58,075 bases of DNA from the NCBI GenBank assembly GCA_016935315.1, contig JAFGRD010000131.1:1-58075 (forward strand). Direction: 5' to 3'. Each line of letters begins with the position of its first letter. Positions within the stretch are counted from its first letter, which is position 1. Made by a program: the position numbers and the translations under genes. The notes below the pieces were generated by a model. It was not told the DNA's origin. It made no database searches and was given only the letters and a program-made list of their open reading frames with translations. Shown here in pieces: positions 27,148-57,847 of this stretch. The stretch comes from Pirellulales bacterium. Lineage in GTDB: Bacteria > Planctomycetota > Planctomycetia > Pirellulales > Thermoguttaceae.

Positions 27148-30100
27148 ATGGGGATCTGGAATTCGTTACGCCGTTTCTCGGAAAAACGGGAACATCGGCG
27201 GCGTTCCAACGGCCGCAAATCGGGGAAGAAGGCAACTCAATTCTGCAATCGGGACCTCCGGGTGGAGCAGTTCGAGGACCGAGTGCTCTTGAGCATCAGC
27301 CCGAGCGGGGGCGACGATGACCTGGCCTGGCAGAGCACGCTTGCCCACGCGATTCAGCGGGCAACCGACCTGCAACAGTACAGCGAAGCAAGTCTTGATG
27401 CAACGGACAATTGGGTTGTTGGCCTGGCGAACGGATTCTCGGCAGAGGCGGTGGCCGGAGCCGTGGGGGCCGATGTCCTGGGCAACGCGGCCAACCTGGA
27501 CAACACCACGATTTGGCAGTTCTCCACCGAGGTCGGCTGGGAAGAGGCCGCGGAGAAGCTCGAGGCTACCGGAGGTGTATCGTTCTTCTATCCCCTGGTG
27601 AAGACGCAGCAGCAGGCGAGGCTGATCCCCAACGACCCGCTGTTTGCGACCCAGTGGCACTTGGACAATACGGGCCAGACCGGAGGGACTCTGGGCGAGG
27701 ATCTCAACGCCGTCGACGTGTGGGACACGTACACGGGTAGCGGTGTCGTGATTGGAATCGTCGACGACGGCATCGATCCCAGCCACCCCGATCTCGCCAA
27801 TCAGTATCGCAGCTCGCTGAGCTGGGACTACAACTTCAACGATGCGGATCCGACGCACGACGATCCCCTGGCCCCAGCGTCTTACGACCGGCACGGCACG
27901 GCCATGGCCGGAATCGCGGCGGCGGAACAGAACAACGCGGAGGGTGTTTCCGGCGTCGCGCCGGGGGCCGACATTGCAGCGTTGCGTCTGACGTCGCTGC
28001 CCACGACGGATCAGATGATCGCCAACGCACTGGTGCATGAATACCAGAACATCGATATCTACAGCAACAGTTGGGGGCCGCGCGACGGCGTCGACTGGCT
28101 GGTGGGTCCCGGTCCCTTGACGTTGGCCGCCCTGAGAGACGGAATCGAGAACGGCCGGGGCGAACGAGGAAGCATCTACGTCTGGAGCGGCGGAAACGGC
28201 CGGCAGAGCGGCGACAACGTCAACTACGACGGCTATGCCAACTCCCGATTCACGATTGCCGTCGGCGCGTTGGATCACAACGGCGTGCAATCGCCGTTGT
28301 CGGAACCGGGGGCTCCGCTGCTGATTTCGGCGTATGGCGGCGACGGCACGAGTGGGATTACCACGACCGACCGCACGGGCCCCGCCGGCTACGATCTGAG
28401 CGCCTATGCGACGATTTCCGAAGGCACATCGTCGGCGGCTGCGGCGGTTTCCGGCGTGATTGCGCTGATGTTGGAGGCCAACCCGGAGCTGACCTGGCGC
28501 GACGTACAGCACATTCTGGTGGAGACGGCCGTCCAGAACGATCCCACCGACTCGGATTGGGTCACCAATGCGGCCGGACATCCGGTGAACCACAAGTACG
28601 GTTTCGGAGCAGTCGACGCCGAGGCGGCCGTGGCGCTGGCAGAGACTTGGCAAAACGTCTTGCCGGAACACTCGCTCCAATCCGGCTCGGTTCTGGTCAA
28701 CTCCGCGATTGCCGATGACTCGCCTTTCGGCGCTTCGTCGATGGTCTACTTGCCGATCGGCCTTCAGAGCGTGGAGCACGTGACGGTCACCTTCAGCGCC
28801 GACCACACCCGCCTCGGCGATCTGGAGGTGAAGCTGATCTCTCCCAGCGGGACCGAGTCCGTTTTGGCATTGCAGCACGACGATCCGGGCAATCCCGAGG
28901 GCTACAACGACTGGGTTTTCACTTCAACCCGGAATTGGGGCGAAGAGGCGGAAGGTATCTGGACCCTGGAAGTGACGGACGTGGTTTCCGGGCAAACGGG
29001 AACCTGGAATACCTGGGAGCTGACCGCCTACGGTCCCGTCGACCCGGACGCCGGCCCCCATTTGGTTTCCATTATCCGCAGCGAGGGCGACCTGCTTTCC
29101 GACGGCGACATTCTCGACGTGGCGCCCAGAGAGCTCACGTTGCGGTTCAACGAGGGGCAGATCATCAACCCGTCCAGCTTGGGCGCCATCCAGGTCATAC
29201 GTGCCGGTCTGGACGGGACGTTCGACGACGACGGCGACGGAGTCGTCGAGCCCGGCGAATACGTGAACGTCGAGCTCGGCTACATCGGAATCGGTGAGCG
29301 AACGTACGAAGTCGTATTCCGTTTTCAGGAAACGCTTCCCGACGACTTGTATCAGATCAGCATCGACGGCAATATGCCGGGCGGGCTGACCAACGTGATC
29401 GGCGTTCCTTTCGTGCCCTTCAACGCTGACGGCGCCGATGACAAGGTGCAAGTGGTCAACTTCGAGTTGGACCTGGGCGGCCAGGTGATCGCCGTCGTTC
29501 CGCAACCGGTCAGCCGCGACGCCGCCGGACACCTGACGCAGGCCCGCAATCAGATCGACGTCTATTTCAACAACGACGACCTGGATCTCGCATCGGCCGA
29601 GGACCCGCGGTTCTACCAGCTCCTATGCACGAACGAGACGGCCGAGACGGGCGACGACAACGTCTATTACCCAACCTATGTCCGCTACAGTGCCGCCGAC
29701 GACAAGGCGGAGCTCATCTTCCTGCGGCCTGTCGGTTCCGTGGCGATCCGGCTGGATGGAGAAAACAACGATTTGCTGCTCACCGCGGCGGGACCGGGCG
29801 TTGCCACGGACGAGGTGATCGAAGTCCTTTTCGTGGCCGAGCAAGCCACGGGCAACGAAGCAATTCTCCTGTTCGACGAGTCGGGAAAGACCCTCACGAT
29901 CGACATCGACCCCGCGGCGACGACCGCCCAGACCGTCCTTGCCGCCATTCGCGCTGAAGGAACCTTCAACGTCAAGCTGGACACGACGCAGGATGCGACC
30001 AACGATGGGAGCGGGCTGATCGGCATGCTGGGGCTGGCGGGCCGCACCGGCGTGCCTTTGCCGCTGGACGAACTGGATCCGAAGGGTGAAGACGCGTTCC

Positions 30101-33100
30101 GGTTGCGTATCGGCACCGAGTATGAAGAGGTCGAGACGTCCGTGCTCGAGGCGGTCAGCCAGGTGACCGGGGGCGGCGTGCTCACGGGCGTTGTCCCCGA
30201 GCCGAGCGACACGATCCTGAACGTGTATGACCCGGGTATCGTGACGGACGTTGTCAACGGGTTTGAGGGCAGTGGTTACATCGGCGACAATCCTTACCTG
30301 CCCTCCGATTCCGCCAACGACGTCGATTTGATCCGCATCGAGCTGGCCACCGGTGACTATCTGACCATCGACATCGATACTCCGGATGACGGCCACACGC
30401 TGGACACGATTCTGCGGCTCTTCGACGCCAACGGCATGGAACTGGCCTACAACGATGACTACACCGGGCCGGACGGGCTCTGGTCGTTGGACTCGTACCT
30501 GTCGTTCACGGCGTCGGTCGCGGGTGTCTACTACGTCGGCGTCAGCAGCTTCGGCAACTTCGGTTACGATCCCTACGTCTCGGACAGCGGTTTCGGCGGC
30601 TCGACGGGTTATTACACGATCAAGATCAACATCGGGTCGATGGACGTCGTGCAGAAGCAAGACGCCGGTTCGAGCTTCGCAACAGCGAACGGGGACTTGG
30701 GCGCGTTCGGCCTGGATACCACGGCCCAGAGCAGAATCATTACCGGGGAGAGCATCGAGCCGACCTTCTACGACATGCAATACCTGCTGGAGTGGCCCGG
30801 CGCAGTGGACGAGCCCGGACATCGCGACATGCCCGACGAGTCGTACGGCCGGGCCGGCGACGATCACTATTTCGGCCACAAGTATTGGTTCTGGGACGAC
30901 GGTTTCTGGGAATACAACACGCCGGCGGACGATTACGCCGGCACCGCTGCGCAAGTGCTCCCGTATTGGCTCACGCCGATGACCACGATCCCGTACAACT
31001 TCCGGGACGACTATTACGCCACGAACTACCACAACCTGATCACGGACGTTCAGAAGGATCGTGTCCGCGAGGTTTTTGAGTTGTGGAGCACGTACTTGGG
31101 CATCCAGTTCGTGGAGACCTCGCCGGAACCGGGCGATGCCTTTCCGGGCATCACGATCGCTACGGGCGAGGTGGACGGCTATACCTATGTGAACAGTGTT
31201 ACCGGCTGGTGGCAGGACTCGCAGGGCGTCGACTTCCCGGTGGCGATCATCAGCAATACGCCGACCACACCCACCGGGACCTGGGGGACGTCCGCGTACG
31301 GCAGCGAGTATTTCGCCACGGTCATGGCCGCGATCAATTTCGTCTTGGGGTTCGGCTATGCCGAAGACTTGCCGCCTACCACGGTGATGAATCTGGCGGG
31401 TGTCGGCGGCATCGATCCGGTGTATGGCATCGGGGCCTCCGAGCGGGTGCTGCCGGGCGACAACGACGTCGTCCACGGCGAGCACCTGTACCGGCCCGAC
31501 AGCAACGATATCGACCTGTTCCGGTTTACCGTCGAGACACCGGGGCTCTTCAGCGCGGAGACACTGGCCGAGCGGCTGGAAAGCACGAGCCAACTGGATA
31601 CCGTGCTCACACTATTCCGAGAGTATGTCGACACCAGTAGTGGCGAGGCGGCGGTTGTCCGGGAAGTCGTCGCCCGCAACGACGACTACTACAGCGAAGA
31701 CTCGTATATCGAGCTCCACCTGAAACCGGGCACCTACTACCTGGGTGTCAGTAGCACGGGCAATCACGACTACGATCCGTTGATCGAGAACAGCGGCGTC
31801 GGCGGCACGTCACAAGGCGTCTACGACCTGCGCGTGAATTTCGCGCCCGACATCGAGGACCACTTGATCGACGCCACGTCGACGCTGTTCGACGGCGACG
31901 CCGACGGCGTTCCCGGCGGAGTCTATGACTTCTGGTTCAACGTCCGGGATGAGGCAAACACGCTGTTTGTCGACAAGACCGCCAGCGGCGTCAGCCCGGA
32001 CGGCACGCTGGCCCATCCGTATAGGACGATCTCCTCCGCGTTCGCCGCGGCGGATTCGGGCGACATCGTGCGCATCGTGGGCAACCATTTCGAGAACGAC
32101 GATCCCTCCATTCCGGCCACGTTGCGGGACAACCAAGCGTACGAGATCGGCGAGGATGTTTTTGGGAACGCGTTGCCCGACGGAGAGCGGATGGAGGTTC
32201 CCCAGGGCGTGACCGTGATGATCGACGCCGGGGCGACCTTCAAGCTCCGCCGAGCGAACATCGACGTAGGCAGTTCGGCGGAAGGAATCGACCGCAGCCT
32301 CGGCGCCTTGCAGGTTCTCGGCACGCCGGAGCACAGCGTCTACTTCACTTCCTACCACAACGAGGCAATCGGCACCGACGGCGAGCCCGACCGAGCGACG
32401 GAGCCCAAGAGGGGTGATTGGGGCGGCGTCGTGTTCCGCAACGACCTGGACTATGACGACGGCCGCACGGTATTGCAGGCAGAAGGGATCTTTCTGAATT
32501 ACGTCAACCATGCCGACATCAGCTACGGCGGCGGCCAGGTGACGGTCGACTCGATCCCAGCGCCCTTCAATCCCATCCAAATGATCGAGGCCCAGCCTGC
32601 GGTCTCCTTCAATACCTTCACCAAGAACGCCAACGCGGCGTTGTCGGCCGATCCGAACAGCTTCATCGACATCAAGTTCCAGAACCACTTCGGTGTACCG
32701 ATAGAAGCTGCCCTGAACACTTCCGTGGAGGCCGATAACGACGGAACCGGCCTGGTCGTGCCCTTGGGCAGGGTGGCCACGACGATGCGGGAAGCCGAGA
32801 GCGAATTCGCCTCGGCGAAGCTCTCGCTGCCGGGCAAGAACAACGATTTGACCCTGACCGCCACCTGGCCGGGATTGGTCTTCGACGGCGTGGAAGTCGT
32901 TTTCATCGATCATTCCGGGGCAGGTGATCAGGCCATCGTGTTCTTCGATGCCCTGACCCGCACCTTGACGCTTGCCATCGATCCCGCCGCCACCACGGCA
33001 GCCACGCTGCTAAGCGCAATCAATGCGGAGGGCACCTTCTCCGCCGAGTTGGACGCGACCGCCGATCGGGCCAACGACGGCACCGGATTGCTCACTCCGC

Positions 33101-36100
33101 TGAACGGTGTCGCGGCAACCCTGGGCGGGGGCGGCGGAGGAATCGCCGCGGTCAGGCCGCTCGGCAACCACAACGATTTCATCATCACTCCCACCGTGCC
33201 CGGGGCCGCCTATCAGAACATCGACGTCGTCTTCACACACAACGCGGCAACGGGCAATCAGGCGATCGTGGACTTCGACCCGATTGCCCATACGCTCACC
33301 ATCGACGTCGACCCCACCGCCACCAGGGCCCTGACGGTCGTCTCGCGAATTACGGCTGAGGGAACGTTTACGGCCCAACTGGACCCGTCCCAAGAGCCGG
33401 GTAACGACGGCAGCGGGCTGATCACCGAGTCGGGCACGCTTGCGACAACCAGCGCCGAATGGGCCGTACTCTCGTTGCCAGGCGAGCACAACGATATCGA
33501 GATCTCGACTCCCGGGCTGGAATCCGACGTGGATATCGTCTTTGTGCGCCATCGGGCGAAGGGGGATCGCGCCATGGCCAGCTACGATGAAGCGGCCGGC
33601 GTGCTGACGATGGATATCGATCCGTCGGCCACGACGGCAAAGACCGTCGTGGACGCGATCAGCCAGATGGGCAAGTACACCGCGGATTATGATCGCGTGG
33701 GACCGGACATCCACGGCAACCGGCTGGTCGACAACACGATCAACGGCATCTTTGTGCGCATCGACACGCCCTTCGGGCAGGAGTTGAAACAACTCGAAGT
33801 GCCCGCGCGCTTCGACGACACGGACATCGTTCACGTCATCGGCGAGAACCTGGTGATCAACGGCACACCGGGTGGGCCCGTAAGGGACATCGAGACGGGT
33901 GAGTTGCAGGCCCGGCTGGACGCGCGACTGGCCATCGACCCGGATGTCATCGTCAAGATGGACAGCGCGACCATCGAGGCCGAAATCGGGACGCAACTGA
34001 TTGCCGGAGGGACGGTCGGACATCCGGTGATCTTCACGTCGATTGTGGACGATCGCTTCGGAGCGGCAGGAACGTTCACGACGACCATCGATCCGCTGGG
34101 GGCAGGGCCCACCGGCGGTGATTGGGGTGGCTTGTTTTTCGCTCCGATTTCGCGAGGCAATCTGGATCACGTCCTGATTGCCTATGCCGGCGGACCAACG
34201 ACGATCGAAGGCGGATTCGCTGATTTTAACCCGGTCGAAATCCACCAGGCGTTCGTGCGGATCAGCAACAGCGTCTTCGAATACAACGCCGACGGTAGCG
34301 ATTCGACCGATCGCAACGGGCGGAGCTCGACGGTTCCGGCAACGATCTTTGTCCGCGGCGCCCAGCCGGTCGTTGTGGACAATACCTTGCGCAACAATCA
34401 GGGGCCGGTGATCAGCATTGACGTCAATTCGCTGGATTCACAGACACTCATCGATTGGGGACGGAGCACCGGGGAAATCGGAACCACCGCGCAGTATGCC
34501 AACAACCGCGGCCCGCTGGTCCGCGGCAACCGTTTGGCCAACAATTCGATCAACGGCATGGCGGTCCGCGGCGGTACGCTGACCACCGAGGTGGTATGGG
34601 ACGATACCGACATCGTCCACGTGTTGCGCGACGAAGTCGTCGTGCCGAACCATCACACCTACGGCGGCTTGCGACTACAGAGCAGCCCGTCGGAGAGTCT
34701 GGTGGTCAAGCTGGACGGCCCGAATGCGGGATTCACGGCCACCGGTTCGCCGCAGGAGATCGACGACCGCATCGGCGGGACGGTGCAGGTCATCGGGACG
34801 CCGGGACATCCGGTCGTGTTGACCGCCATGGCCGACGATTCCTACGGCGCCGGCCTCGACCTGTGGGACCAGTTGCAGTGCGACACGAACAACGACGGGA
34901 TGAACAACGACCCGGATCCGACCCAGCGGGGCGCCCAACCCGTGGCGGGCGCATGGCGGAGCGTCAAACTGGACCGCTACAGCAACGACCGAAACGTGGC
35001 GGTGATTCCCGAATTGGAGGAAGCCTCCGATAGCATCGAGGACATGAACGCGAACCCGCAGAGTGCACAATACGTCGGTGACCTGGCACCCGACCAGAAG
35101 TCCGGCGACGACAATCTGCGGCTGGGCTTCGAGATCAACGGATTCATCCGGCTGGACGATGCCCGCGATGTCGACGTCTATGCTTTCAAAGCCGAAGCGG
35201 GAACGGAGGTCTGGCTCGATATCGACCGCTCGACTCATTCCCTGGATACGATCATCGAGTTGATCGACGCCAACGGCAACGTGCTGGCCCGGTCCGACGA
35301 TTCGTACGACGAGCAGAATGGCCTGGTCGATCCCGACGGCTTGGCGCGGACCATGGACTCAGACGTTTGGCTGACCAAGGACTACGAGACCACGAATCCC
35401 CGCGACGCCGGGATGCGGGTCGTGTTGCCCGGGGCCCAGGGCCAGGTGCGGACCTACTACGTGCGGGTGCGCAGCTCGCTGGCGATCGGCCACGTGGGCG
35501 ACGCGTCGGACCTGATGGATCAGGACTGGTTCCGCATCACGAGTGGGGAAACCACCCTGACGTTCGAATTCGACACGGGCCCGGACGTGCGCATGAAACC
35601 CGCCGGCGCCGCGGCCGTTCGCGACGGCGAGACCTTCCTGCTCAGCGACGGGACCAGCACGAAGGTCTTCGAGTTCAACAGTGGCCCGGTGCTGGTCGTC
35701 CGCGAGGACACGCCGGTGGCCGACGGCGATCGGTTCGTGCTCACCGACGACACAGGCGTGAACTTGCCGGTGACTTTCGAGTTCGAGCAGATCGATCCGG
35801 AGTCGCAGCTCGGTGACGGTGTCAAAGACGGCAACGTGGCGATTCCTTTCACCGCGTCGGACACGGTGGGGCGACTGGTAACGCTGATCGTCGAGGCGAT
35901 CAACGGCGCCCGCGATGCGGAACTGCTGACCGTGACCGCGTCCGGTTCCTCGCTCGACGGGACGGAGGGGCGCGTTTCGCTGGTCAACGACTCGGCCGTA
36001 CAACTGCCGAGTTGGGCCACCATCCGGCTCGACGGAGACCACAACGATCTGGAAATCCGTGCCGCAACGCCTGGCCCCGATTTCGAGAACATCGACATCG

Positions 36101-39100
36101 AATTCCAGAATGTGCCCGGACTTGCTGTCCCGGTTGCCAGCTTCGATGCAGGGGCGGGCACCCTCACCGTCACGGTCGACGTCGACACGACGACCGCCGG
36201 CGAGGTGGTCGTCGCCATCAACGACGAAGGCACGTTCCTCGCGGAATTGGACGCGACGGTCGATGAGGACAACGACGGCTCCGGCCCAGTCGGCGCTTCG
36301 GGCGTCGTGGGCCAGACCCGGGGAACCGCCAGCCTCGGGATCGAGGGCGACTATACCTTGGTCGATCCCGCTGGCCACGTCGCGATCGCTTTCGAGGAAA
36401 CGGACTCGCACGATGTCTTCGGGCAGAAGATCGTGGCGGCCGTGGAGGCGGCCTTGCCGAACATCCATGCGGGCGCCGGCTTGGCCATCGGCTGGTTCGA
36501 TCCTTCGGCACTCGACCCCCGAGTGACCTTCTATCAAGCTGCTGATGCTGCGTTTGCTCCGCGCGCTTCCGCGTTGGAGATCACGATGCCGGGCCAGAAC
36601 AACGACTTGCTGATTGCCGCGAAGGTGCCCGGCCCTGAGTTCGACGGCGTCCGTGTCGTGTTTGTCAACGCCATGGCCAGCGGTGATCAGGCGCTGGTCA
36701 GCTACAACGACGTGTCGCGAACGCTGACGATCGACGTGGATCCATCCGCCACGCTGGCCACGACCGTAGTCGCGGCCGTCGGCGCCAACAGCCCCTTCAC
36801 GGCCGAACCGACTGCGACCGCCTCGGACGTCTCCAACAACGGTAGCGGTCTGATAACGGCATTGGGCGATTCCGGCATGACCGCTGGAGGAACGCTCGTG
36901 AGCGTGGCGTCCTTCACGCAGTTGGACGTTGCGCAAGACGGCGTGGCCGCGTCTGCCGATATCACGATTCCGCTGACCGCCGGCGACAGTGCGGCTGAAG
37001 TCGCCGCGGCGATTGCAGCGGCCGTTGAAGAAGCCAAGGCGAGCTACGGGTTGAACATCGCGCCGCGCGTGTTGGAGGGCAAGGTCGTTTTGGACGGCCC
37101 GGCAATCGAACTCAACACGGGAACCACCCCGTTTGCCGCGGTCGGCCCGACCGAGGGCGCCTATCAATTGCAGCTCCGCTTGCGCGAACTCCAGGAGTAC
37201 CCCGGTTCGGTCGTCCGCTACGCAAGTATCCACTATGCCACCAACGGCATCGAGGTGTACGGCTTGCCCAACCGCTCGCCGCTGCTGGCCGAGGTCGCCG
37301 AAGTGGAGAGTTCACCGGACACCGCCGCTGTGGCCGGCATCAGACCGGCCGGCGCGAACAACGACCTGGTGATTACGGCCGCCACGGCGGGAACGGCCTT
37401 CAACGGCATCGCCATCATTGTCGAGAACAACACCGCGACGGGCAACCAGGCGATTGTCACGTACGACGATACGGAACGAACACTGACGCTCGACGTCGAT
37501 CCGGTAGGGACCACGGTCAACACCGTGATCGCGGCAATCAACGCGGAAGGCACCTTCCGTGCCGCACTCGACCGCAGCGTCGAATTCTCCAATAGCGGAG
37601 CCGGCGTGATCAGCGAAACCGGCACCGTGGGGACGACCTCCGGAGGCACCACCGGATCCGGAAGCAACAACACCTTTGCCAACGCCCAGTTCATCGGAAA
37701 CGTGCTCGACTCCGACCAGGGCGTGTTGCGCGTGGGCGGCGCGATCGACATGGCCCACGACGTCGACTGGTATCAATTCACCTTGGACGCCGAGAAGGCG
37801 CGGGACTACAGCACCGGCAGTTGGCCGGTGACGTTCGACATCGACTATGCCGACGGCATGGAGCGGCCCGACTTGAACGTCTGGGTGTTCGACTCCGCCG
37901 GCAACCTGGTTCTCAGCGGCCTGGATTCCAACATCGTGGACGACCGTCCGGGACCCTATCAGGGTGCCGATATCGACAACCTGGATCGCGGGACGGTCGG
38001 TGCGGGGGACCCGTTCATCGGCACGGTGCAGATGGGGGAGAACCTTGGCACGACCTACTACGTGGCGGTGGCGAGCCACGACATGATGCCGGACATGTTG
38101 AGCCAGCAGTTGATGCGCCGCGAGCCGCTGCCCTCGTTGTATCGCGTGGCTGAAGATCATATCGGCTCGTGGGACAGATCGAGGATCGGCGGATACTCCA
38201 GCACCTACAGCACGCCGCTGTTCGGCGACGGCTCTTCCGGTTCGGTGATCTCGCTGAACGCCAACGCCGACGATTTTCACTTGGGCGACGTGGTGATGTT
38301 CGTCAACACGGGCGTCGAGTTGTATACCATCGATCCGTTCACCGGCGAGTTCGAGACCGACGTCACGGGCACGGGGCCGAACGAGCGTCTGCCCGACACG
38401 GTTGGCAGCCCATGGCTCTCGTATGGCGACATCGCCATGCGCAACGACGGCATGCTGTACACGTTCACGCGGACCGGTAATGTTGTCGCGAACCAAAACA
38501 ACATCGCTGGCCAGTACCGGCGGTTCGACACGGGCGACGCGAAGATCCTGCTGCACGATCAGGACAACGGCATCAACACTTTCGAACTGGATTACCCCGA
38601 CAATCCCTACAACATCGTTCCACAGAATAACAACGGCGGCGTCAACTTCGAGGCGATCGTGCACGAGCCGGTCGACCGCAATCGGCACGTGTACGCGGTG
38701 GGGTACCGCCAGCCGGGTAACGGCGTCAAATTCACGAGAAACTTGCTCTACAAGTTCGACGCCGACGGGGTGGCCCAACAGTATCCGGATCTGCCAACGG
38801 ACGATCGCCTTCCGACCGACATCGTTCCCATTGCCCACCTCGTTGCCGGCCCGACGATTATCCTCTCCGATGCCACCGACACGGTCTATCCGTTCAACAA
38901 CCCGGGAGATCTGCTGGACGGGGCGACGCTGGTGGTCGATGATCACGGCAATCTGGTGACCTTCGAGTTCGACTGCGGTCCCGACATCCGCTTGGACCCG
39001 ACGGGGGCCCAGGCGGCGCGCGACGGGGAACTCTTCGTGCTGGAAGCCGACGGCACCAGCGTTACTTTTGAATTCGACAGCGGCCCGGTGCTCGCCCACG

Positions 39101-42100
39101 GCGACGGCACGACCCTGGTCGACGGCGACACCTTCACGATTCAGGACACGCCGGGCGTTATCTATACCTTCGAGTTCAACGACGTCAACAGCGGTACGCA
39201 GGTGGGCTCAGGCAACGTCGAGATCCAGTTCGCGCCCTTCGAAACGGCCGACGTCGTCCACCAGACCATCATGGAGGCGATCAACGGGGCCGGATCCGCG
39301 ACCCTGGTTGCCACGGGCTTCCTGCCCGATGCGGACCACGGGCGCATCTCGCTGGCGGGCGACCGTGCGATGTCTCATGGGCTGGTCGCCACGAGCGTGC
39401 GGGTCGAAGGGGACTACTCCGATCCCGAAGAGACGGACAACGTGCTCGTGCTCTTCGAAGAGACCGACCCGGTCGACGTTTTCGGACAAGGCATCGTGGA
39501 TACCGTGATGGCGACCTTTCCGCAAGTCGACGGCGGCTATGCCCACCGGACGGGCGAACCGGAACCGCTGACAGTCGGCGACCGGCTCACGCTGTACGGC
39601 ACGACCGGCTATTCCGCCGCGCCGACGTACGCCACCGTGGACGTCGACCCGGACGGCGCGGACAACGAGTTCACGATTACGGCAGTCAATCCCAGCGCCA
39701 ACTACAACGGCGTCGAGATCGTCTTTGTCGACACCACGATGTTCCGGACCGTTTCCGGACCGGACATCGTCGATTCGCAAACCTTTACGGTCAGCGACGG
39801 GACGACGACCGTCACCTTCGAGTTGGACACGGGCGATGGCGTGACGGTCCCGAACATGCCCGTGCTGTTCAACAACAGCTTCTCAGCCGCGGAGGTGGCC
39901 GACGCCGTGGCGACGGCCATCAACAACGCACCGGGCGGAACGGCGACGCTGACCTTGGCAGGCGACAACAACGACATCGGAATCACGGCGGCCACCCCGG
40001 ATCCGGCTTACGAGAACGTCGCCGTCATCTTCATGCAGGCGGCGGGAACCGGCGACGTGGCAACGGTTGCCTTCGACGGCGGAGCCGGCACCCTGACCAT
40101 CACCATCGATCCGGACGCCACCAGGGCCCAGACGGTTGTCGACGCGATTAACGCCGAGGGCACGTTCACCGCGGGATTGGACCCGACGATCGATGATCCC
40201 AACGACGGCAACGGATTGATCAGCGAGACCGGCACCGTGGCAACGACCTCCGTGGCGTTGATGGTGACGGCCACCGCGTCGGACGACGTGGTCAGCCTGG
40301 AACTCAGCCAGCCGCCGGGGGCCCTCTCCTTCGATCTGGACACGTTGACGCCCACGTCGTTCATCGACCTTCGCGTGACCGACGGGTTAGCGCGCGTCAC
40401 TTTCGACATACTGGCGCAACCCCGCACGATGACCATCGACATCGACCCCGGCGTGACCACCGCCGCCACGGTCGTCGAGGCCATCAACACCTTCATCGAC
40501 GGCATCGACACCAGCGAGTTCTTCGCCCAACTGGCAGAGGGTGTAGCGGGCGACGGCGTGATCACGACCTTGGGCACGGCCGGTACGATGGACGGCGGCT
40601 TTGGCGTTCCGTCATACACGCTCGCCATGGGGGTCAACGGGCTGAGCGATACGGGCATCGCTCCCACCTCGCAACACGTGATTCCGTTCACCGCCGCCGA
40701 TACGATCGTGGATCGCCTTCAGGCCCGCGTCCTCAACGCGATCAACGGTGCCGGCGCCGGCTTCAATGCCCGCGGCATGGGGGACGATGAGGTCGAGATT
40801 CTCAACGCCGTGAGGGCGACCATTTCGCAGCCGCTGCAGATCATCGGCGAAGGTCCCGGCGGTGACATCACGGGAATGGCGCACATCGGCAACACGCTCT
40901 ACGCCGTGAGCAATCTGGGCGGATTGTACCGTGTGCTGGATGTCGACAGCTACAATCTGCACCCGGTGACTCGAATCGTTTACGATGAGAATGGCAATCC
41001 GCAGGAGATCCTCGACGTCGCACGTGGCACCGGGGGCGCGCGGCTGGCGTACGTGGGACCTTCGGAAGACTACCTCCTGGGGCTTCAGTTCTCGGGCCTG
41101 GCCGCGGGACCGTCGAGCGTGGAAGGCGGCAAGTACTCTCAGGTGTTGTTTGCCACCACCAGCGACGGTCACCTCTACGCCATCAACGTGGAGAACAACC
41201 CCGCCCAGAGCAAGATTCCCGGCATGCTGATGCCGTACTTCCTCGACGGCGAGACGACCATTCAGCTCCAAACGGCGGACGGCCTTCCGCTGACGGGTCT
41301 GACCGGCGTCGATTTCTCCACCGTCGATTACAACCTCTGGCACGTGACCAACTATCGCGAGGGCGATGCCGGTCACGGTATCGAATCGGCTGACAACGTC
41401 GATGAAAGCCGGCCTACACCTGCATATCGCGTCGATGGTCGCACAAGCTTCTACTTCGGTTTTGAGGATCCCCGGCCGAACACGACGATTTCCTTGCAGC
41501 CGGGGGCCGGCAACTACACGGAAACCAACCCCGGCGTGTTCTACACCTACGATCTGCCCGGCGGTGCGCACGGCAGCCTGACGACCAATCCCTTCAGCCT
41601 CGTCGGATACAGCGCCGACGATGAGCCCATGCTGTATTTCAACTACCTGCTCGAAACGGAAGGGAGCGATCGGTGGGATAGCGCGCGGGTGTTTATCTCG
41701 CAGGACGGTGCGACCTGGAGACTCTTGAGCGACCTCGGCGACAGCGCCGACCAGTGGAGCCAGGCGAGGATCTCCCTGGCCGGCTACGTCGGCCAGGAGA
41801 AGCTTCAACTGCGATTCGATTTCAGCACGGCGGGCGATATGCACGTCGGCGACGCCAATGGCATCTACGCCAGCAGCGAGTTCACCACGGGAGCCTATCT
41901 GCGCGCCCTGGCCGGTAACGAACTGAGCGACGGCCAGCAGTTCACGATCCAGGGTGATCTCGCGGAGCCCTACCAGACGTTCGAATTCGATCTGGGGTAC
42001 GAACTGCTGGTTCCCAACGCCGCCGGTGCGGCGATCAAGGACGACCCGGTCCGAGGGGCCGAATGGTTCTTGATCCAAGACGGCACGGGGCAGACGGCGG

Positions 42101-45100
42101 TCTTCGAGTTCGACGAAGACCAGTTCCTGGTCCACGGGACCGTGCCCGTTCCGATCACCGACACGATGACGACCAACCAGGTTGCCAGCGCCATGACAGC
42201 GGCGATCGAAAACAGCGGTCTGACCGACGTCACCGTGTACGCGTACGACGGTAAAGTGACCGTGCAGGGAGCGACCCTCGTTGCCCAGAGCGACCTGAGT
42301 GACCCGCAAGAGATGACACCGAGGGTCGTCCTCCGCGGCGGTAACGGCGTTGCCCTGACCTCCGTCCCCGTGCCGATTACTCCCGACATGACCGCCGAGC
42401 AAGTGGCCATCGTCATTGCCGAAGCCATGGACCAGCGCTACAGCGGTGCCCGAATGTTTCGTCCCGCGGACGGCGAGACCTTGGCGGCCTCGAAGTCGCT
42501 CACCGCTGCGCTGGATAGTACGGCCGACGTCGGCAACGACGGGTCGGGTCTGGCGACGCCGCTGAACCACGCCGTGGCAACGACCGACGGCACCGGCGCT
42601 GCGATCGTGCAGTTGGCGGGCGCCAACAACGATTTCGCCATCGGCGCCGGCACGGCCGCGGATCCCGCCTCGGTCGACGTCATCTTCGTCAACAATCCCG
42701 GTGCGGGCGATACGGCCGTGGTCGCCTACTTGGAGGCGCTGCGTATCCTGCTTGTCGAAATCGACGCGGCGGCAACCACGGCAAACACCGTGGTCAACGC
42801 CCTGAACGATGAAGGCTCGTTTACGGCCGCGCTGGACGAGACCGGAGCGGACAGCCCGAACGACGGCAGCGGAACGATCACCCCGTTGGGCGTCGTGGGA
42901 TCGATCGCGGCGGACAGCGTTGTCGCAACCGCGGCCATTGCCCCGAACGGCAACAACAACGATTTCGTGCTTACCGCCAATACACCGGGAACGGGATCCG
43001 TGGGCGTCCACGTCATCTTCGTGCATAACGTGGCATCAGGCGATCAGGCGATTCCGGTATTCGACGGCGCGGAGGGTACGTTGATCATCGACGTCGACCC
43101 GACCGCCACCACGATGAACACCATTATTGCGGAGATTACCGCCGAAGGCACGTTTACCGCCGTTTTGGACGAGACGGCCGAACCCGGCAACGACGGCAGC
43201 GGTCTGATCGATCCCATGGACTTGAGCACGACGTTGGGGACGACTACCGGCGACGCCGTGATTTCCATCGCGCTGACGCTCGGCGACAACGATTTCACGA
43301 TCTCGGCCGCGTCGCTGGATGCCGCTTTCGGAGGGATTGACGTCGTCTTCGTGGCCGACCAGGCGTCGGGCGACGAGGCAATCGCCGCCTTCGACGCGGT
43401 GGCCGGGACGCTGACGATTGACATCGACCCCGCGGCCACGACGGCCAATGCAATCCTTGCGGCCATCAATCAGGAAAGTACCTTCACCATCAGTGACGGG
43501 ATCACGACCTTTACGCTGGAATTCGACAACCAGGCCTTTGCCGACGGGGTCGGCCCCGGGCACATCGCGGTTCCCTACAGTACCGGCGACAGCCCCGCCG
43601 AGGTCGCTGCCGCAATTCTCACCGCGTTCGATCTGGCCAACAGCGCCAAGGCAACACTGGTGTTGCCCGGCGCGAACAATGATCTGATGATTGCCGCCGC
43701 GACTCCCGGACCGGGGTTCGAGGCCATGCGCATCGAGATCGTGAGCACGCTCGGGCTGGGCGATGTGGCGAACGTCTCCTTCGGCGGCGACACCTTGACC
43801 ATTGAGATCGACCCGCTTGCGACGACGGCCAACACGGTCATCGCGGCAGGGGGAGCCACGGGCATGTTCGTTGCCACGCTCGATACCGGGCAGGATCCGG
43901 GCAACGACGGCACAGGTTTGATCGCCCCGCTGGGCACGGCGGCGATCATTTCGGCGGCCAACGGCCTGGCGTGGGCGTCCGTCACCCCGACGGGCGACAA
44001 CAACGACTTCCTGATCATCGCCAACGCCCGAGACGCCGATCTCCAGGGGATTCGCGTGGTGGTCACGGCCGATCCCGGCGTCGTGGGCGATGCGGCTACC
44101 GTTCAGTTCGATGCCGTGACCCGCGCTCTGGTAATCGGCATCGACCCCGATCCGATCAGTGGCACGACGGCCGCCACAATTGTCGCCGCGATCAACGCCG
44201 AGGGCACGTTCGCGGCTGTGCTGAACGACCTCCTGGAAGTGGGCAACGACGGCAGCGGGTTGATCGATCCGGCCGACCTGGACGTTGTGCTGGGCAATAC
44301 GGCGGCGATTCCGGCGGCCCAATTGCTGCTGGCGGGCGACAACAACGACTTCGTCATCGACGCGCTGACCTTCGACCCGGCGCTGGAGGGGATCGAGGTC
44401 GTTTTCGAGCACGCTCCCGACACCGGCGACGTGGCGACGGTCGTCTACGACGACGTGGCGGGCACCCTGCTGATCACGCTCGATCTGGCGGCGACGACCG
44501 TCAATACGATCATCGGCGAGATCAATGCCGAGGGCACCTTCCTGGCGGCGCTGGACACGACGCTGGAGGCGACCAACGACGGCACCGGCCTGATCGCGCC
44601 GCAAGGCGTGGTCGCCACGGCCACGAATCCGGTTTATCTGAATATCACGGCCCAAATGCTGCTCGGCTCGAACGACGTCATCTCGTTGGACGGCCCGGTG
44701 GTCTTGTTCGACGCGGGGAACAGCCCGCTGACTATCGTCGGCTCCGTGGACCGTCTCGATACGTTCACCTCCATCAAGGTGGACGGGAGTCTGCTGCACA
44801 TCATCGGCCACACGGTGTCGTCTTCGGGGCCGCTTCCCTACAGCAATATTCTGCCGTCGGACCATCCCACGCCGCTTCCGCCGCTGGACTATTTCCACGA
44901 TTATCAGCGCGGCCAGGACAACGTGCATGAAGGCTTCTACATCGATGATCTCATCATCGGTTTCATCGAGCGTGGAGAGCTCTACACGGCTCAGACGGCC
45001 GACACGAATTTCCACGAGGTCCAAGTGGGCATCAACACCGGGGCCTATCAACTCGAAATCCGCACCGGGACCGAATACGGTGTGCCGCTCTACCGGGCCT

Positions 45101-48100
45101 TCGACACCAACGACCGACTCCGTCAGGCGATCACGCTCGAGGCACTGGACTCGGGCGATATCTACCACGGGCGGACTTTCACCGTCAGCGACGGTGTAAA
45201 CCAGGTGACCTTCGAGTTCATCGATCCTCTCCTGCCCGTACCCGGCAACGGCGTGCCAATCCAATTCACGGGCACGGAGACGGCCGCACAGATCGCCAAC
45301 CTCGTGGCGCAGGCCATCAACCACGTTACTGCGCCGCTGGACGTCTCGGCCACTTCCATCGCCACGAGCGATCGGGCCGACCTGTTCGGGGCCGCGTGGG
45401 TCAACGGCATCAACTACATCGTCTTTGGCGAGGCGTCCACGCCCAGGGTGTTCCCCCAGGACGTCGTCAAGGTCACCGAGATCACGACCGACGCCAACGT
45501 GCTCCGCGACGCGATTGTAGGGGCCGGCATGACACCTGTCGGCGACGCGACCCTCGTGGGCGGGGCGACGTCGGCCGGGCTCTGGACGTCCGGCACCCAG
45601 ACGGGGATCATCCTTTCGACCGGCGACGCCGGTATCGGGGCGGGGCCGAACCGCGCCGACGGCGAGGACGGAGGGCTCGCCTCGGAGCAGGGTGATACGA
45701 GTCTGAACCGTTTGGCGGGGACCGTGACGACCGACACCACTTCTCTGGAATTCAACTTCGAATGGGTCGGCGGCGATTTGCAGATCGATTTCGTCTTCGG
45801 CTCGGAAGAGTACAATCAGTACGTCCACTTGGGACACAATGATGTTTTCGGGATCTTCATTGACGGCACCAACTATGCCACGATCAACGGCACGCCGATT
45901 CCCGTCACGGTCGACACGGTCAACGGCGGGAATCCGCTGGGTGTCAATGCAAGCTACGCCCAGTACTACCACGACAACGATCCCGACGGCGACGGCCCGT
46001 TCGTGAACCTGGTCGGCTATGACGGCTTCAGCGACGTCTTCTCTGCCCTGGCTACGAATCTTGCGCCCGGCTTGCACACGATCAAGCTTGCGATTGCGGA
46101 CGTCGGCGACATGGCGGGCGACTCGGGCGCGTTCATTCGCCTGACCCCGCGACGCGTCGACGCGATCGACAGCGACATCAATCATTCCCGCGAACAGGGG
46201 CAGTTGTTGATCAAGTCGAACGAGATTACCCATTCGCTGCAATACGGGATTCTCGTCGACGCCGGCGACCGGGACACGGCCGCCAACTGGGCGCATCCGG
46301 CTTCCGTAGCGCCGTTGCGGGAGATCAACACCTCGCGTCTGGTGCCCGGTGTAACGATCGAGAACAACTTGATTGCCAATGCCGAGCGCGGCGGCATCCG
46401 CTTCAGCGGCGACGCGAATGCCAGCGGAAACCCCGTCGCTGCGGTGCCCTTCGGTCGGATCGTCAACAACACGATCTCCGGCGGCGTGGCGGTTACCAGC
46501 CAGGCGGTGACGCAGGCCGACATCGTGTTCCTGCTCGACACCTCGGGGAGCATGGGCACGGCCATCGAGAACGTGAAGCAGAACTTGCTGCAAACGGAAG
46601 CGGCGATGTTGGCCGCCGGAATCGATGCCCACTACGGACTCGTGGCGTTTCCGGCGTACGTCGGCGACACCATGGACGAGCGAAACGAACCCTTGATGCT
46701 GCAGGACGTTGTCGACTTCCAAACCTTTACGGCTGCCGGCAGTGCCTTCGACCAATTGACCGAGACACCGACGGCCACGGAATATGGAAGCCGCGCAGTC
46801 CTGGAATCGCTGAACCAGATCATCGACACCACGACCCTCAACTTCCGCTCCGACTCACGCGTCGTGCTCGTGATGGTCACCAACGAGGATGACGACAGCG
46901 ATCCGACGGACATCGCCGCGGCTCAAGCCGCCGTCGCCGCCAACAACGCGCTGTTCGTCTACATCGGCGATCTGTGGTGGTCTTCGTGGTATCCATGGGG
47001 CGCGACGACGGATGCCTACGCCGACCTGGCGGCGGCCAGCGGCGGCGGCGGTTTCGAGATCACCGATTTCCTCAACGATCCGGATGCCTTCTTTGCCAGC
47101 TTCTCCCAGTTTCTCGTCGGCGCCGTGGTCGGCGGGACGCGCGGCGTGGCAGGCATCGTGGTGGACGAGAACGCCTCACCCACGATTCTCAACAACATCG
47201 TGTCCGGCTTTGAAACGGGCATTGCCGTCGACGCCACGTCGCAGACCACGGTCATCGGGGGCTCGGTCTATCAGAACAATCTGGCGAACACCTCGCCGGG
47301 GGTCGGCTTGGGCAGCTTCCCCATCGATCTGAGCGCTCCCGAATACCAAGGACTGCCGTTGTTCGTCGACGCGCTGAGCGGGAACTTCTACCTTCAGGAA
47401 GGCTCGCCGGCCATCGACAGTTCCATCGAGTCGTTGGACGATCGCCCGGCACTGACGACCGTCAAGGCCCCGTTGGGGATCGCGCCGTCGCCGATTCTGG
47501 CCCCGAACCAGGATCTGTACGGACAGGTGCGGGCGGACGATCCCGACGTGTCGGGATACGGCGGGTCCGGTGTGAATATCTTCAAGGACCGCGGGGCAAT
47601 CGACCGCATCGACTTCGACGGTCCCATGGCCAGGTTGAACGCTCCGCTCGACGACTACCCGGAGGGACTCGACCGCGAGCCCGCCAGGCACCACGTGCGG
47701 CTCGTCAACCAGACCGTAACCGAATTTGCCATTCAGCTTTCCGATTTGGGTATCGGCATCGACGACAGCAGCGTGACCACCCACGCGGTGCGGGTCTACC
47801 GAGACGACAACGTCTTGTTGACTTCCCCCCGCGACTACACGTTCAGCTACTCCGCCACCAACGATCTGATTCGTCTGATTCCGGCGCCGGGCGTGTGGTA
47901 CAACGGCAGCGACTACCGCATCGTGCTGGACTGCTCCGCCGACCCCTTGTTCGACGGCAACTACGTGGCGCCCATCCGCGACCTGGCCGGCAATCCCTTG
48001 TTGCCCAACCAGTCGGACGGCTCGGTCTCCTTCACGATCGAGCTTCGGGGCCTCGACTACGGCGATGCGCCGGATGCGCCCTACCCCTCGCTGTTGGAAA

Positions 48101-51100
48101 ACGACGGACCGCGGCACGTGCTGCTGCGCGACTACCAGTTGGGCGTGCGCGCCAGCTACGAACCCGACGCCAGACAGAATGCCACCGCCACGGCCGATCC
48201 CTATGACGACGGCATCCTGATGGACAGCGCCCTGTGGATGGGTTCCACGGTCGACATGATCGTCACGCTTGACGTGCCGGCAGGGGGTCTTCCTCAGTTG
48301 CAGCAGGGCTTCTTGGACGCTTGGATCGACTTCAACCGCGACGGCGTCTGGAGCCAGAGCGAACGGCTGGCACAGGCCACGGCCACGCTGGCATTGCCCG
48401 GCGACAATAACGATCTGACCATCCAGGGCGCCACGCTGGGGACAACACTGGGCGACGTCAACGTCGTCTTTGTGCACGTCACGGCGGGCGATCAGGCGGC
48501 GGTCGTTTTCGACCAGAGCGCGGCCACCCTGACAATCTACCTCGATCCGTTGGCGACCACGGCCAATACGGTGGTTGCGACGATCAACGCCGAGGGGACG
48601 TTTACGGCCGAGCTCCATACGGCCGCGGAACCCGACAACGACGGCACCGGCGTGTTCGACGTGGCCGGCCCGGTGGGATCCACTTCGTTGACCAGCCCGC
48701 GGTTGGAACCTGGCGACAACACGCTGACGATCGCCACGCCCGAGTTCGACTTCCCGGCCGGCGTGACGCGGTTGACCACGTATGCCCGCTTCCGCCTGAG
48801 CAGTCAGGGTGGCCTGGGATTGACCGGCGAGGCGCCGGACGGCGAAGTCGAAGATTACCAGTTGGTTATGGTCCCGTACTTGCAGGACTTCGGCGACGCT
48901 CCCGACGACGCCAACACCCCGCTCTATCCGACCTTGGCTGCCAACCAAGGCGCCTGGCATCGCCTCGGTTCCGGCCTGTTTCTGGGGGCCGATGTCGACT
49001 CTGAACTCAACGCGTATCCCGACTCGGCGGCCCGCGGCGACGACGACACCCACCGAGACGACGAGGATGGCGTCGTGTTCAACGAGGCTCTCTTGCGGGG
49101 GCTGCCGGCCGGCATGACGGTGACGGCTTCGGCCGCCGGAAGGCTCGACGCGTGGATCGACTTCAACCAGGACGGCGTGTGGGACGAGAGCGAGTGGCTG
49201 GCCTCCGCCGAGACCGGTATCTCGCTGCCTGGCAACAACAACGACCTGGACATCCGCAGCACGTCGCTCGGCACGGCCAGGGACGGGGTCGACATCGTTC
49301 TGGCCAGTGCGCCCGGCGCCGGCGACCAGGCCATCGTCGTCTTCGATGAAGATGCGGGAACTCTGACCATCTTCATCGACCCGGCGGCGACTACCGCAAA
49401 TACCGTGACGGGGGCCGTCAACGCCCAAGGCATCTTCACGGCCGAACTGGGGACCGCGGGCGATCCCGGCAACGATGGCAGCGGGCTCATCGCTCCGGGA
49501 GGCTTGCAGGACCCCGTGTTGGTAGGTTCGTTGTCGCTGACCAGCCCGATGCTGGTAGCCGGCGCCAACGTCTTGGACGTGGCAATCCCGGAGGAAGCCG
49601 GCGAAGGAGCGACCTACGCCCGGTTCCGCCTCAGCAGCACCGGGGGGCTGACGCCCTCGGGCGGCGCGGCCGACGGCGAGGTCGAGGATTATCAACTCGT
49701 CATTGCCGAGCCGCCGCTCGATTTCGGCGACGCTCCCGACCAGGCCGGACAGACCGGCTACGGCACGCTCATGGCCAACGACGGGGCTCGGCACCGCCAG
49801 GACCCGCGAGTGCCTTTGTTCCTGGGGGCGAATGTCGATGCCGAGTTGGACGGCCAGCCGGGCTCGATGGCGCTGGGCGATGACAACGACGGCAACGACG
49901 ACGAGGACGGCGTGATCCTTACCGCAGCCCTGGTTCAGGGCCTGCCCACCACGATCACCGTGACGGCGTCGCAGAGCAGCAAGCTCGACGCCTGGATCGA
50001 CTTCGACGGCGACGGCACATTTGGCAACGACGAATGGCTGGCATTGGCTACGGCCGTTCTCGATCCCGAGGGCGACAACAACGAGTTGCGGATCGAGTCG
50101 CGCACCCTTGGCAGCGAGTTCGACGGCGTCGAGATCGAGCTGGTCGGTGGGCAGTCGGGCGGCGAGGCCTCGGCCAGCTATGACGGCGTCGCCCGCAAGC
50201 TGACCATTGCGATCGACGACGTAAACGGCACGACTGCCAACGCGGTTGTTGCGGCAATCGATGCCGAGGGAACCTTCGCCGCGGCCGTCGACACGTCGGC
50301 CAATCCGGTCAACGACGGCACTGGCTTGATCGACGGCATGTCGCTCGGCCTGGCGGGCGCCATGTCCTTGGCGAGCCCGACACTCCTGGCCGGCGACAAC
50401 GTGCTCACGTTTGTCGTGCCGCTCGACGCCACGTTGGGCGTCAGCTACGCTCGGTTCCGCGTCAGCACGGCCGGTGGACTCGCGCCCTTCGGGAAGGCGC
50501 TGGACGGCGAAGTCGAGGATTACCAGGTGGCGATTGTCGAGGCGCCCGAGGACTTCGGCGACGCCCCCGACAGTGTAGCCCAGCCCGGATACCCGACGCT
50601 GCTGGTCCACGACGGTGCCCGGCACCGAGTCGATGCGGGGTTCCGCCTCGGCATGGAGATCGACAACGAGTTGGACGGACAGCCGGATGCCACGTCCACC
50701 GGCGACGATCTGGACGGCAACGACGACGAAGACGGGATCACCTTCGTGGACTACCTGATTCCGGGCATGCCGTGCATGGTCACCGTGGACGTGTTCAACA
50801 CGACGGGCATCGACGGGGTTCTCAATGCCTGGATCGATATCAACGGCGACGGCGATTGGAGTGATCCGGGCGAGCAGATCTTCGTGGATACGATCCTGCC
50901 CGCCGACGGCGGCGTGGAGGACCCGGTCACCGGTCTTCGTAGCTATGAGCTGACATTCAACGTGCCCGAGCAGATCAACGACGTGGACGTCACGGCGAAG
51001 ACGACGGTGGGACGGTTCCGCCTCAGCCAGGAGACCGGTTTGTCGTATGCCGGCCCGCCGGAAGGCGAGGACGCGCCGGTCGGCGAAGTCGAAGACTACG

Positions 51101-57238: not shown

Positions 57239-57847
57239 ATGACGGATCCGTTGATCGACCCGCTGCAACGGAAGCAGCAGCTCCGCACCGAGGCATCTGC
57301 GCGTCGCCGGGCACAGGCGGGCAAGGATCGGCTCAGCCGCGAGATCTGCGGGAAGCTGGCCGCTTTGCCGGAATACCTCGCCGCCGCCACGGTGCTGTTC
57401 TACGTGGGCGTTCGCGACGAGGTCCGCACGCGCCCCTTCCTGGAAACCGCCTGCGGCGCCAAGCGGATCGTGGTCCCCTATTGCGTGGGCCCACGGCTCG
57501 AACTGTTCCACATCGAGTCGCTCGCCGAGCTGGACGTCGGCGGCTTCGGGCTCTGGGAGCCGAAGGCCGAGCTGCGCCCGCGCGCCGACCGCCGGGTGGC
57601 CGTTGCCCAGCTCGATCTGATCGTGGTGCCGGGCGTGGCCTTCGACGGCCGCGGCGGCCGGCTGGGCCATGGCCAGGGCTACTACGACCGGCTGCTGCGC
57701 CAAACGGGCCCGGACACACCCACGGTCGCCGTGGCCTTCCAGTGCCAGCTCTTTGCCGAGGTTCCCATGCTGCCCCACGACGTCTTCATGCGCAAGATCC
57801 TCACGGAAACGGCCGTCTACCCACCAGCGCCGCCCACGCCGGGCTGA
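57239..57847 (+). CDS. 5-formyltetrahydrofolate cyclo-ligase family protein
   Basis: 202 residues, a usual length. The enzyme converts 5-formyltetrahydrofolate to 5,10-methenyltetrahydrofolate with ATP. Seen: KQQLRTEASARRRAQ (the N-terminal K-x-x-L-R pattern), VLFYVGVRDEVRTRPFL, FHIESLAELDVGGFGLWEP (the G-x-x-G-I-x-E-P substrate loop), and LIVVPGVAFDGRGGRLGHGQ followed by GYYDRLL, the ATP-binding signature. The start ATG at 57239 has no clear ribosome site. The gene begins 34 bp after the giant gene. Confidence 0.92.
   Translation: MTDPLIDPLQRKQQLRTEASARRRAQAGKDRLSREICGKLAALPEYLAAATVLFYVGVRDEVRTRPFLETACGAKRIVVPYCVGPRLELFHIESLAELDVGGFGLWEPKAELRPRADRRVAVAQLDLIVVPGVAFDGRGGRLGHGQGYYDRLLRQTGPDTPTVAVAFQCQLFAEVPMLPHDVFMRKILTETAVYPPAPPTPG

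Follow-up and report, generated by a model that had tools for sequence, protein, structure and literature searches.

The stretch analysed here (the window) is positions 1 to 58,075 (nucleotides, nt) of contig JAFGRD010000131.1 in the Pirellulales bacterium assembly GCA_016935315.1, which comprises 7.1 Mb in 172 contigs. It carries one giant gene, a single open reading frame (ORF) of 10,025 amino acids (aa) without internal stops, in which a cassette of about 103 residues occurs in 17 near-full copies and four fragments. The protein starts with a subtilase domain, with a P domain beside it, and finishes in a dockerin-like end; it also contains PPC matches, T-modules (a second shuffled unit, described below), the cassettes, and choice-of-anchor L, VWA-like, GEVED, NIDO and Calx-beta-like domains, where “-like” denotes scores below the Pfam cut-offs. 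The GEVED modules number nine when counted by motif. Where a record with a relative of the giant gene carries a name, it is that of a planctomycete, in most cases uncultured, and many are labelled Pirellulales. The gene, its subtilase domain and the cassette copies, located by profile match, are as follows.

27127–57204, + strand: giant gene, single ORF
27736–28608, + strand: subtilase domain (Peptidase_S8, Pfam PF00082, E 3.7e-55, aa 204–494)
29743–30054, + strand: cassette copy 1, site A
32704–32784, + strand: C-terminal cassette fragment opening permuted array B (profile positions 75–101, 12–14 bits)
32818–33126, + strand: cassette copy 2, site B
33148–33456, + strand: cassette copy 3, site B
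33466–33702, + strand: cassette copy 4, site B, closing permuted array B (profile 2–85)
36019–36324, + strand: cassette copy 5, site C
36577–36888, + strand: cassette copy 6, site C
37336–37644, + strand: cassette copy 7, site C2, a site shared with relatives
39643–39738, + strand: N-terminal cassette fragment, site D
39946–40254, + strand: cassette copy 8, site D
40387–40590, + strand: degenerate cassette (profile 38–101)
42487–42585, + strand: C-terminal cassette fragment opening permuted array E (profile about 70–101, 13–14 bits)
42604–42912, + strand: cassette copy 9, site E
42934–43251, + strand: cassette copy 10, site E
43264–43494, + strand: cassette copy 11, site E, closing permuted array E and running into a T-module (profile 2–77)
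43654–43956, + strand: cassette copy 12, site E
43978–44298, + strand: cassette copy 13, site E
44320–44628, + strand: cassette copy 14, site E
48385–48690, + strand: cassette copy 15, in GEVED module 1
49216–49536, + strand: cassette copy 16, in GEVED module 2
50056–50367, + strand: cassette copy 17, in GEVED module 3

The consensus of the cassette reads LxGxNNDLxIxAxTPGxxxxGVxVVFVxxxxxGDxAxVxFDxxAxTLTIxIDPxATTANTVVAAINAEGTFTAxLDxxxxxxNDGxGLI, and copies 4 and 11 lack its C-terminal quarter. A profile made from 16 hand-picked copies scores the near-full copies at 87–131 bits each and the partial ones more weakly, while a 17-copy profile run against the whole window genome (E ≤ 1e-3) finds 22 places: the 17 copies and one partial in the giant gene, and four on another contig, C164. 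Mean pairwise identity among the 17 copies is 43% in aa and 57% in nt, with a highest nt identity of 65%. This low identity, together with the profile hits, marks a real and old family, neither an assembly repeat nor chance: chance repeats are ruled out by the profile and the whole-genome search, and an assembly artefact by copies that are at most 65% identical in nt. The first-pass annotation of this DNA, made from the letters alone, was thus right to see a repeated family inside one gene; its figure of about 19 copies becomes 17 near-full copies and four fragments, and the span it gave, starting at 32734, begins too late, since a full copy lies at 29743–30054. As that annotation had also proposed, the structure of the cassette was predicted (AlphaFold2 with the 17 copies as input; predicted local distance difference test, pLDDT, 89.3; predicted template modelling score, pTM, 0.82), giving four strands, a helix and a strand. 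The cassette is probably a compact, surface-exposed β/α domain.

A conserved region of the gene served to fetch related loci, each with flanks of no more than 10 kb, and the best 80 of 335 were kept. Five of the 80, all already-known relatives, hold the cassette at E ≤ 1e-4. Two cassettes each are found in G015, G016, G018, G032 and G089, as against 17 in the window gene, with G018 and G032 running off their contigs; a more distant giant-gene relative, G007, has six weaker ones. For the comparison of insertion sites five of the 80 loci were dropped as duplicates of our G contigs, and the panel consisted of the other 75 plus eight relatives; six insertion blocks were examined, and the count at each is that of relative ORFs in which both flanks of the block were located. 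No relative has a cassette at site A (0/32; spacing 29–50 residues in 23 ORFs and 139–703 in 9, compared with 312 in the window), at site B (0/78; 65 of the 70 gaps printed are 6–23 residues, window 344) or at site C (0/79; the 70 gaps printed are 1–38 residues, window 556). The same holds for site D (0/22; 1–16 residues in 5 ORFs and 318–455 in 17, window 671), where the long spacers hold T-modules in the three ORFs looked at, and for site E (0/20; 7–46 residues in 10 and 147–1293 in 10, window 779). Site C2, which holds copy 7, is occupied by a cassette in 4 of 78 relative ORFs, and other close kin are without it. Because the cassette is absent at A–E in all relative ORFs with both flanks, its spread by insertion inside the giant gene, as the first-pass annotation had supposed, is well supported by these sequence comparisons.

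In relatives ...YYVRVRS runs directly into GAYQLQLRL; at site C the insert parts the two, just after a partial PPC match. That the insert lies at the end of a PPC domain is our own reading, the profile match itself stopping earlier; the first-pass remark that a cassette interrupts a jelly-roll is plausible. One relative, L070, has B and C2 empty and holds at site C one T-module and no cassette, compared with T-modules plus copies 5 and 6 in the window, so that it looks like an intermediate toward the window arrangement. L070 is the sister of the window gene in one tree (support 99/96), an order that is lost once G041 is added. The contig of G041 begins within site B, and copy 4 is common to G041 and the window (98/96).

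The T-module has the motif TFTISDG..VTFEFD..AAEVAAAIxxAIN, corresponding to the TFEFD type. Its profile gives 10 hits in the giant gene and hits in 79 of 673 planctomycete panel ORFs (E ≤ 0.01), and Pfam has no match over cut-off on the T-modules of the giant gene. The six strongest of the 10 hits are:

35719–35940, + strand: T-module inside the site C insert
39118–39312: T-module
39769–39954, + strand: T-module running into copy 8
42061–42240: T-module
43477–43662, + strand: T-module between copies 11 and 12
45163–45351: T-module

Separately, the G041 gene (locus L061) has at aa 422–599 an extra host insert of about 175 residues that is not in the window gene, which indicates that other domains too have dropped into this gene family.

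The two arrays at B and E do not begin and end at the cassette boundaries. By profile position, array B reads 75–101, full, full, 2–85, and array E about 70–102, full, full, 2–77, followed by a T-module; the flagellar hook protein FliD of G018 reads 75–102, then 2–82, its permuted cassette lying between FliD_N and FliD_C (Pfam). The window holds 12 clusters (9 in phase, 2 permuted, 1 partial); for the 58 found elsewhere, many from closely similar genes, the numbers are 45, 1 and 12. All three permuted inserts break near one point of the cassette, around GTFTA (profile 70–85), and the empty host at site B reads FTADYD in several kin. With hosts selected by neutral anchors, the host-to-cassette match at the insertion register of B ranks 1 of 103 positions (53 hosts) and 2 of 103 when seven close kin are used. 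Recombination at shared short stretches is thereby supported at this one site, and elsewhere it is conjecture. Several points count against the overall explanation given below: the register match is not outstanding at E (rank 16/103 with 8 hosts, median single-host rank 39) or at C2 (6/103 with 71 hosts, median 46), the fragments that open the permuted arrays are weak at 12–14 bits, and “permuted” means cluster ends complementary within 14 positions, a tolerance of our own. We nevertheless put forward, as a tentative and rather doubtful proposal, that the cassette may be an intragenic mobile domain that moves in whole-unit steps and takes its register from short stretches that host and cassette have in common (GTFTA/FTADYD at B, perhaps TFT at the T-module), appearing permuted wherever the common stretch lies mid-domain, with one rule for giant surface genes and FliD. 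If true, this register rule would describe a general way for giant genes of bacteria to grow through nested insertion. Another giant-gene lineage, represented by L062 (G007, contig C72) and L065 (G008, contig C28), has tandem cassettes inside GEVED modules; by eye, one of its arrays looks permuted around the NDG stretch, and our script classed it as partial.

The strongest cassettes outside giant genes are in frames of about 1250 aa from the same taxonomic order (122 bits, E 4.9e-35, profile positions 4–102 of 103). Two such loci scanned with Pfam have Flagellin_C downstream, over the cut-off in L150 and just under it in L154; we call these proteins FlgL-like, a label of our own given from sequence. 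The window genome itself has an FlgL-like gene of more than 1000 aa with Flagellin_N and Flagellin_C ends and three diverged cassette relatives of 41–54 bits (L050, 14396–17407, + strand), and a flagellin gene, also of more than 1000 aa, with a faint relative of 26 bits (L050, 2178–5378, − strand). Counting the window genome each time, the cassette is matched in 63 of 119 genomes of the same family (E ≤ 1e-3), 78 of 396 of the order (E ≤ 1e-14) and 9 of 392 of the phylum (E ≤ 1e-12), with at most 12 candidates scored per genome in the last two. Judged by these profile matches, flagellar hook proteins (FlgL-like, FliD) have the cassette as a middle domain, and the giant surface protein uses it as well; from the breadth of occurrence we infer that the direction was from flagellar protein to giant gene.

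The last three copies are nested in GEVED modules, and the GEVED profile (PF20009) matches the host modules with E 1.1e-42 and 4.2e-74 in two scanned stretches:

48055–48858, + strand: GEVED module 1, carrying copy 15
48886–49692, + strand: GEVED module 2, carrying copy 16
49720–50523, + strand: GEVED module 3, carrying copy 17

Copies 15–17, numbered 17–19 in the first-pass annotation, do share one equivalent site in the three modules, between a conserved AWIDF..DG stretch and an LxAGDN strand. They had been taken for separate insertions, a claim that finds no support here: the junction wording is common to modules 1–3 on both sides of the cassette, the back half of module 1 groups, if weakly, with modules 2 and 3 in half-module trees (81/75), and copies 15 and 16 are sisters in the second of our two cassette trees (98/88). 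Copies 15–17 are thus probably not three fresh insertions. The alternative raised at the same time, that one cassette-bearing GEVED unit was duplicated (here twice), would explain the shared junctions, and it draws further on copies 15–17 forming a clade in the first cassette tree (86/83; not rejected as a clade in the second, p 0.36), on modules 2 and 3 being sisters in the host tree (95/89), and on the approximately unbiased (AU) test, in which a single clade uniting the three hosts is not rejected (p 0.18 for whole modules, 0.195 for N-terminal halves). Set against this, module 1 groups with the cassette-free first GEVEDs of five relatives (97/97), as does its front half with the cassette-free orthologs of five relatives (98/94), and of seven relatives, six have alignments that run unbroken from the upstream region into module 1 and end close to where the cassette begins, only the G018 alignment continuing. 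The host pair (modules 2 and 3) also disagrees with the cassette pair (15 and 16), though AU rejects neither alternative (p 0.27, 0.18). Duplication of the whole unit is accordingly a possibility that we rate as somewhat improbable.

Transfer of the cassette between neighbouring GEVED modules most likely fits these signs best. In the 56-nt stretch ending 13 nt before copy 15, module 1 is 84% identical to module 2, 75% to module 3 and 63% to module 4. Transfer has evidence against it as well: besides the single host clade that AU leaves standing, the back half of module 1 has its highest identity, 63%, to the positional orthologue in G032, and its native grouping is not rejected (AU p 0.48). 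These last two results lower our confidence in the overall explanation given below, and raise it in unit duplication and in serial import. Five relatives have their own cassette at another place in GEVED, after D[YF]GDAP. In G007, whose modules did not enter the GEVED trees, four tandem cassettes occupy the place corresponding to that of copies 15–17, in the first GEVED listed for it. The best matches of these are the cassettes of G008 and not copies 15–17, so the place may be a recurrent insertion point. Modelled together, GEVED module 2 and its cassette gave a poor structure (pLDDT 53.7).

Overall, the best explanation, which we hold to be reasonably probable, is that the cassette multiplied inside the giant gene by recombination. 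The ancestor of the giant secreted protein would have held one cassette at the copy-7 site, with multiplication inside the gene in the window lineage; whole units or short arrays of it would then have entered another five positions outside GEVED, often beside T-modules. The cassette would have travelled by ordinary recombination, or by template switching where short coding stretches resemble one another, rather than as a transposable element, and within the GEVED array unequal crossing-over or gene conversion would have passed it to a neighbouring GEVED. Independent folding is probably what lets the cassette tolerate insertion. A surface-exposed spacer or binding module would be its likeliest use, and its likely role is to make the exposed stalk of a surface protein, adhesive or proteolytic, longer and more varied.

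Three further results weigh against this explanation. The cassette tree is almost unresolved (AU p 0.0645, near rejection, for all 17 window copies as one clade, and 0.12 for all giant-gene copies; the long ortholog cassettes G015_2564 and G016_2567 were omitted from the second tree and the G007 and G008 copies from both); several window copies are about as close to FlgL-like cassettes from a different taxonomic family as they are to one another; and copy 4 is 54% identical to its G041 counterpart, closer than the window paralogs are among themselves (43% aa), so copies may predate their present places. The first two fit serial import, in which already-diverged cassettes would have come in on many occasions from genes for flagellar or other surface proteins, and the same genome holds the FlgL-like gene with three cassette relatives. 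Those relatives are far weaker than the copies in the giant gene (41–54 against 95–140 bits), which makes the obvious local donor unfit; the sister copies 15 and 16 sit in neighbouring modules, and the tandem arrays found at B and E look to us like the outcome of local duplication, and we therefore regard serial import as unlikely. If instead many cassettes were present in the common ancestor and have since disappeared from most relatives, copy 7 would be expected in some relatives (it is common to four and absent in other close kin) and copy 4 could well be closer to G041 than to its paralogs; this requires the cassette to have gone from five sites in each of the relative ORFs examined, and the gaps at B, nearly all of 6–23 residues, speak against it too, so that an ancestral array is very improbable. 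A selfish, transposon-like coding element targeting genes might leave copies in several unrelated domains of one gene, as seen here. It is hardly credible given the lack of inverted repeats of at least 30 nt and of near-identical copies, the one unbroken frame throughout and the regular position of the cassette in FlgL-like proteins. A transposable element of the miniature inverted-repeat (MITE-like) kind with inverted repeats of 30 nt or more was rejected, since no such repeat (seed 14) occurs in 29000–51000 and the best copy identity is 65% nt; at the DNA level copies and hosts have diverged beyond the point where target-site duplications would show.

The cassette family is, as far as profile searches tell, without a name in the libraries searched (Pfam, NCBIfam and PHROGs). 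In stretches covering all window copies neither Pfam nor NCBIfam has a model over cut-off on any cassette, and the first-pass annotation had not recognised the domain; two sub-threshold NCBIfam hits to UxxU_metal_bind overlap copies 4 and 8. On 19 cassettes (7 from the window, 12 from relatives) Pfam gives scattered weak hits alone (best E 0.0051, listed without cut-offs), and GEVED is not among the families listed. Flagellin_IN (PF07196) was rejected as an identity of the cassette, being listed neither for the 19 cassettes at E ≤ 1 nor for the window stretches; its hits on flagellar proteins fall outside their cassette copies. The earlier impression of a flagellin-IN-like style was therefore apt insofar as the strongest relatives outside giant genes are in flagellar hook proteins, while Flagellin_IN itself has no match.

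The likeness to phage-tail folds mentioned in the same breath has some weak signals behind it. PHROG 279 (phage tail sheath) hits 3 of the 19 cassettes weakly (best 3.6e-5) and, in a separate scan, 1 of the 17 window copies. Among the same 19 cassettes, one matches PF17481 (phage tail sheath domain II), at E 0.031, below the curated cut-off of 31.4 bits (the bit score of the hit is not shown; on this scale a 35-bit match has E 5e-8). Foldseek against the PDB finds nothing under E 0.001 for the cassette model. VIA-align, which re-aligned 252 Foldseek chains, places residues 152–243 of the phage phi812 sheath in its top PDB rows (Z 4.6/4.2/3.7, where Z < 8 may mean merely a common arrangement), and the only other near-ranked family listed is one selecase, Z 3.2. 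A BFVD search gives one unnamed hit at 7.8e-4 and then, from 6.5e-3 upward, mostly phage proteins without characterisation; when one window copy was compared with phages by tblastn, a single weak hit came up (E 6e-2). Neither of two cassette profiles found a relative among PDB sequences (none at E ≤ 10 for one; best E 0.16, to unrelated proteins, for the other), and a viral contig scan with one FlgL-like cassette found none either. The resemblance to sheath domain II thus consists of weak sequence hits and a weak phi812 fold match, and against it stand the single PF17481 hit and an hhalign probability of 0.6% for the cassette versus planctomycete sheath domains (thin alignment, 4 of 5 loci). 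These signals suggest a lead, one that neither the Pfam scan nor, with its thin alignment, the profile comparison bore out.

Among ten neighbouring ORFs scanned with Pfam (E ≤ 1e-4) no mobile-element family was matched. In window positions 1–26500 the neighbours are, by Pfam, LysM, alpha/beta hydrolase, MotA/ExbB and diacylglycerol kinase, with weaker matches to TPR and transglutaminase-like families, and the downstream neighbour at 57239–57847 is a 5-formyltetrahydrofolate cyclo-ligase (Pfam).

Among known systems, the giant protein can be compared with the fibrillar adhesins, in which GEVED is a stalk domain and long surface proteins grow by domain shuffling (PMC10952558, Barringer et al. 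2023). The likeness lies in GEVED modules within long, shuffled surface proteins; the relevant passages of that paper are silent on a domain nested inside GEVED or other domains. Flagellins, for their part, have large exposed inserts between conserved ends, with planctomycetes among the holders (PMC6248924, PMC7018530), and the passages on giant flagellins and hypervariable regions name neither a shared insert domain nor a link to giant surface proteins. Phrase searches of the literature on domain insertion, giant-protein shuffling, flagellin/tail sheath and permutation returned nothing to the point, which does not in itself show absence from print. The middle domains of planctomycete FlgL-like and FliD proteins belong to the same family as the cassette (up to 122 bits, and 40–54% identity among the best hits listed) and share with it the motif order, the tandem pairs and the placing of the domain ahead of the conserved flagellar C-terminal end. 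The FlgL-like and FliD proteins examined have about 2–4 cassettes, whereas the giant protein has 17, several nested in other domains, and is secreted. Through the cassette family, the middle domains of flagellar hook proteins are thus linked to modules of secreted giant proteins.

Tandem repeats are usually the sole basis for inferring how giant bacterial genes grow. The present gene shows domain insertion at several sites, some of them nested, and has cassette-free relatives, T-module-only kin and permuted arrays beside it, so that the steps of gene growth can be ordered and tested. The case is of a known kind, domain shuffling, in an unusually well-resolved form, and is more informative than ordinary tandem repeats.

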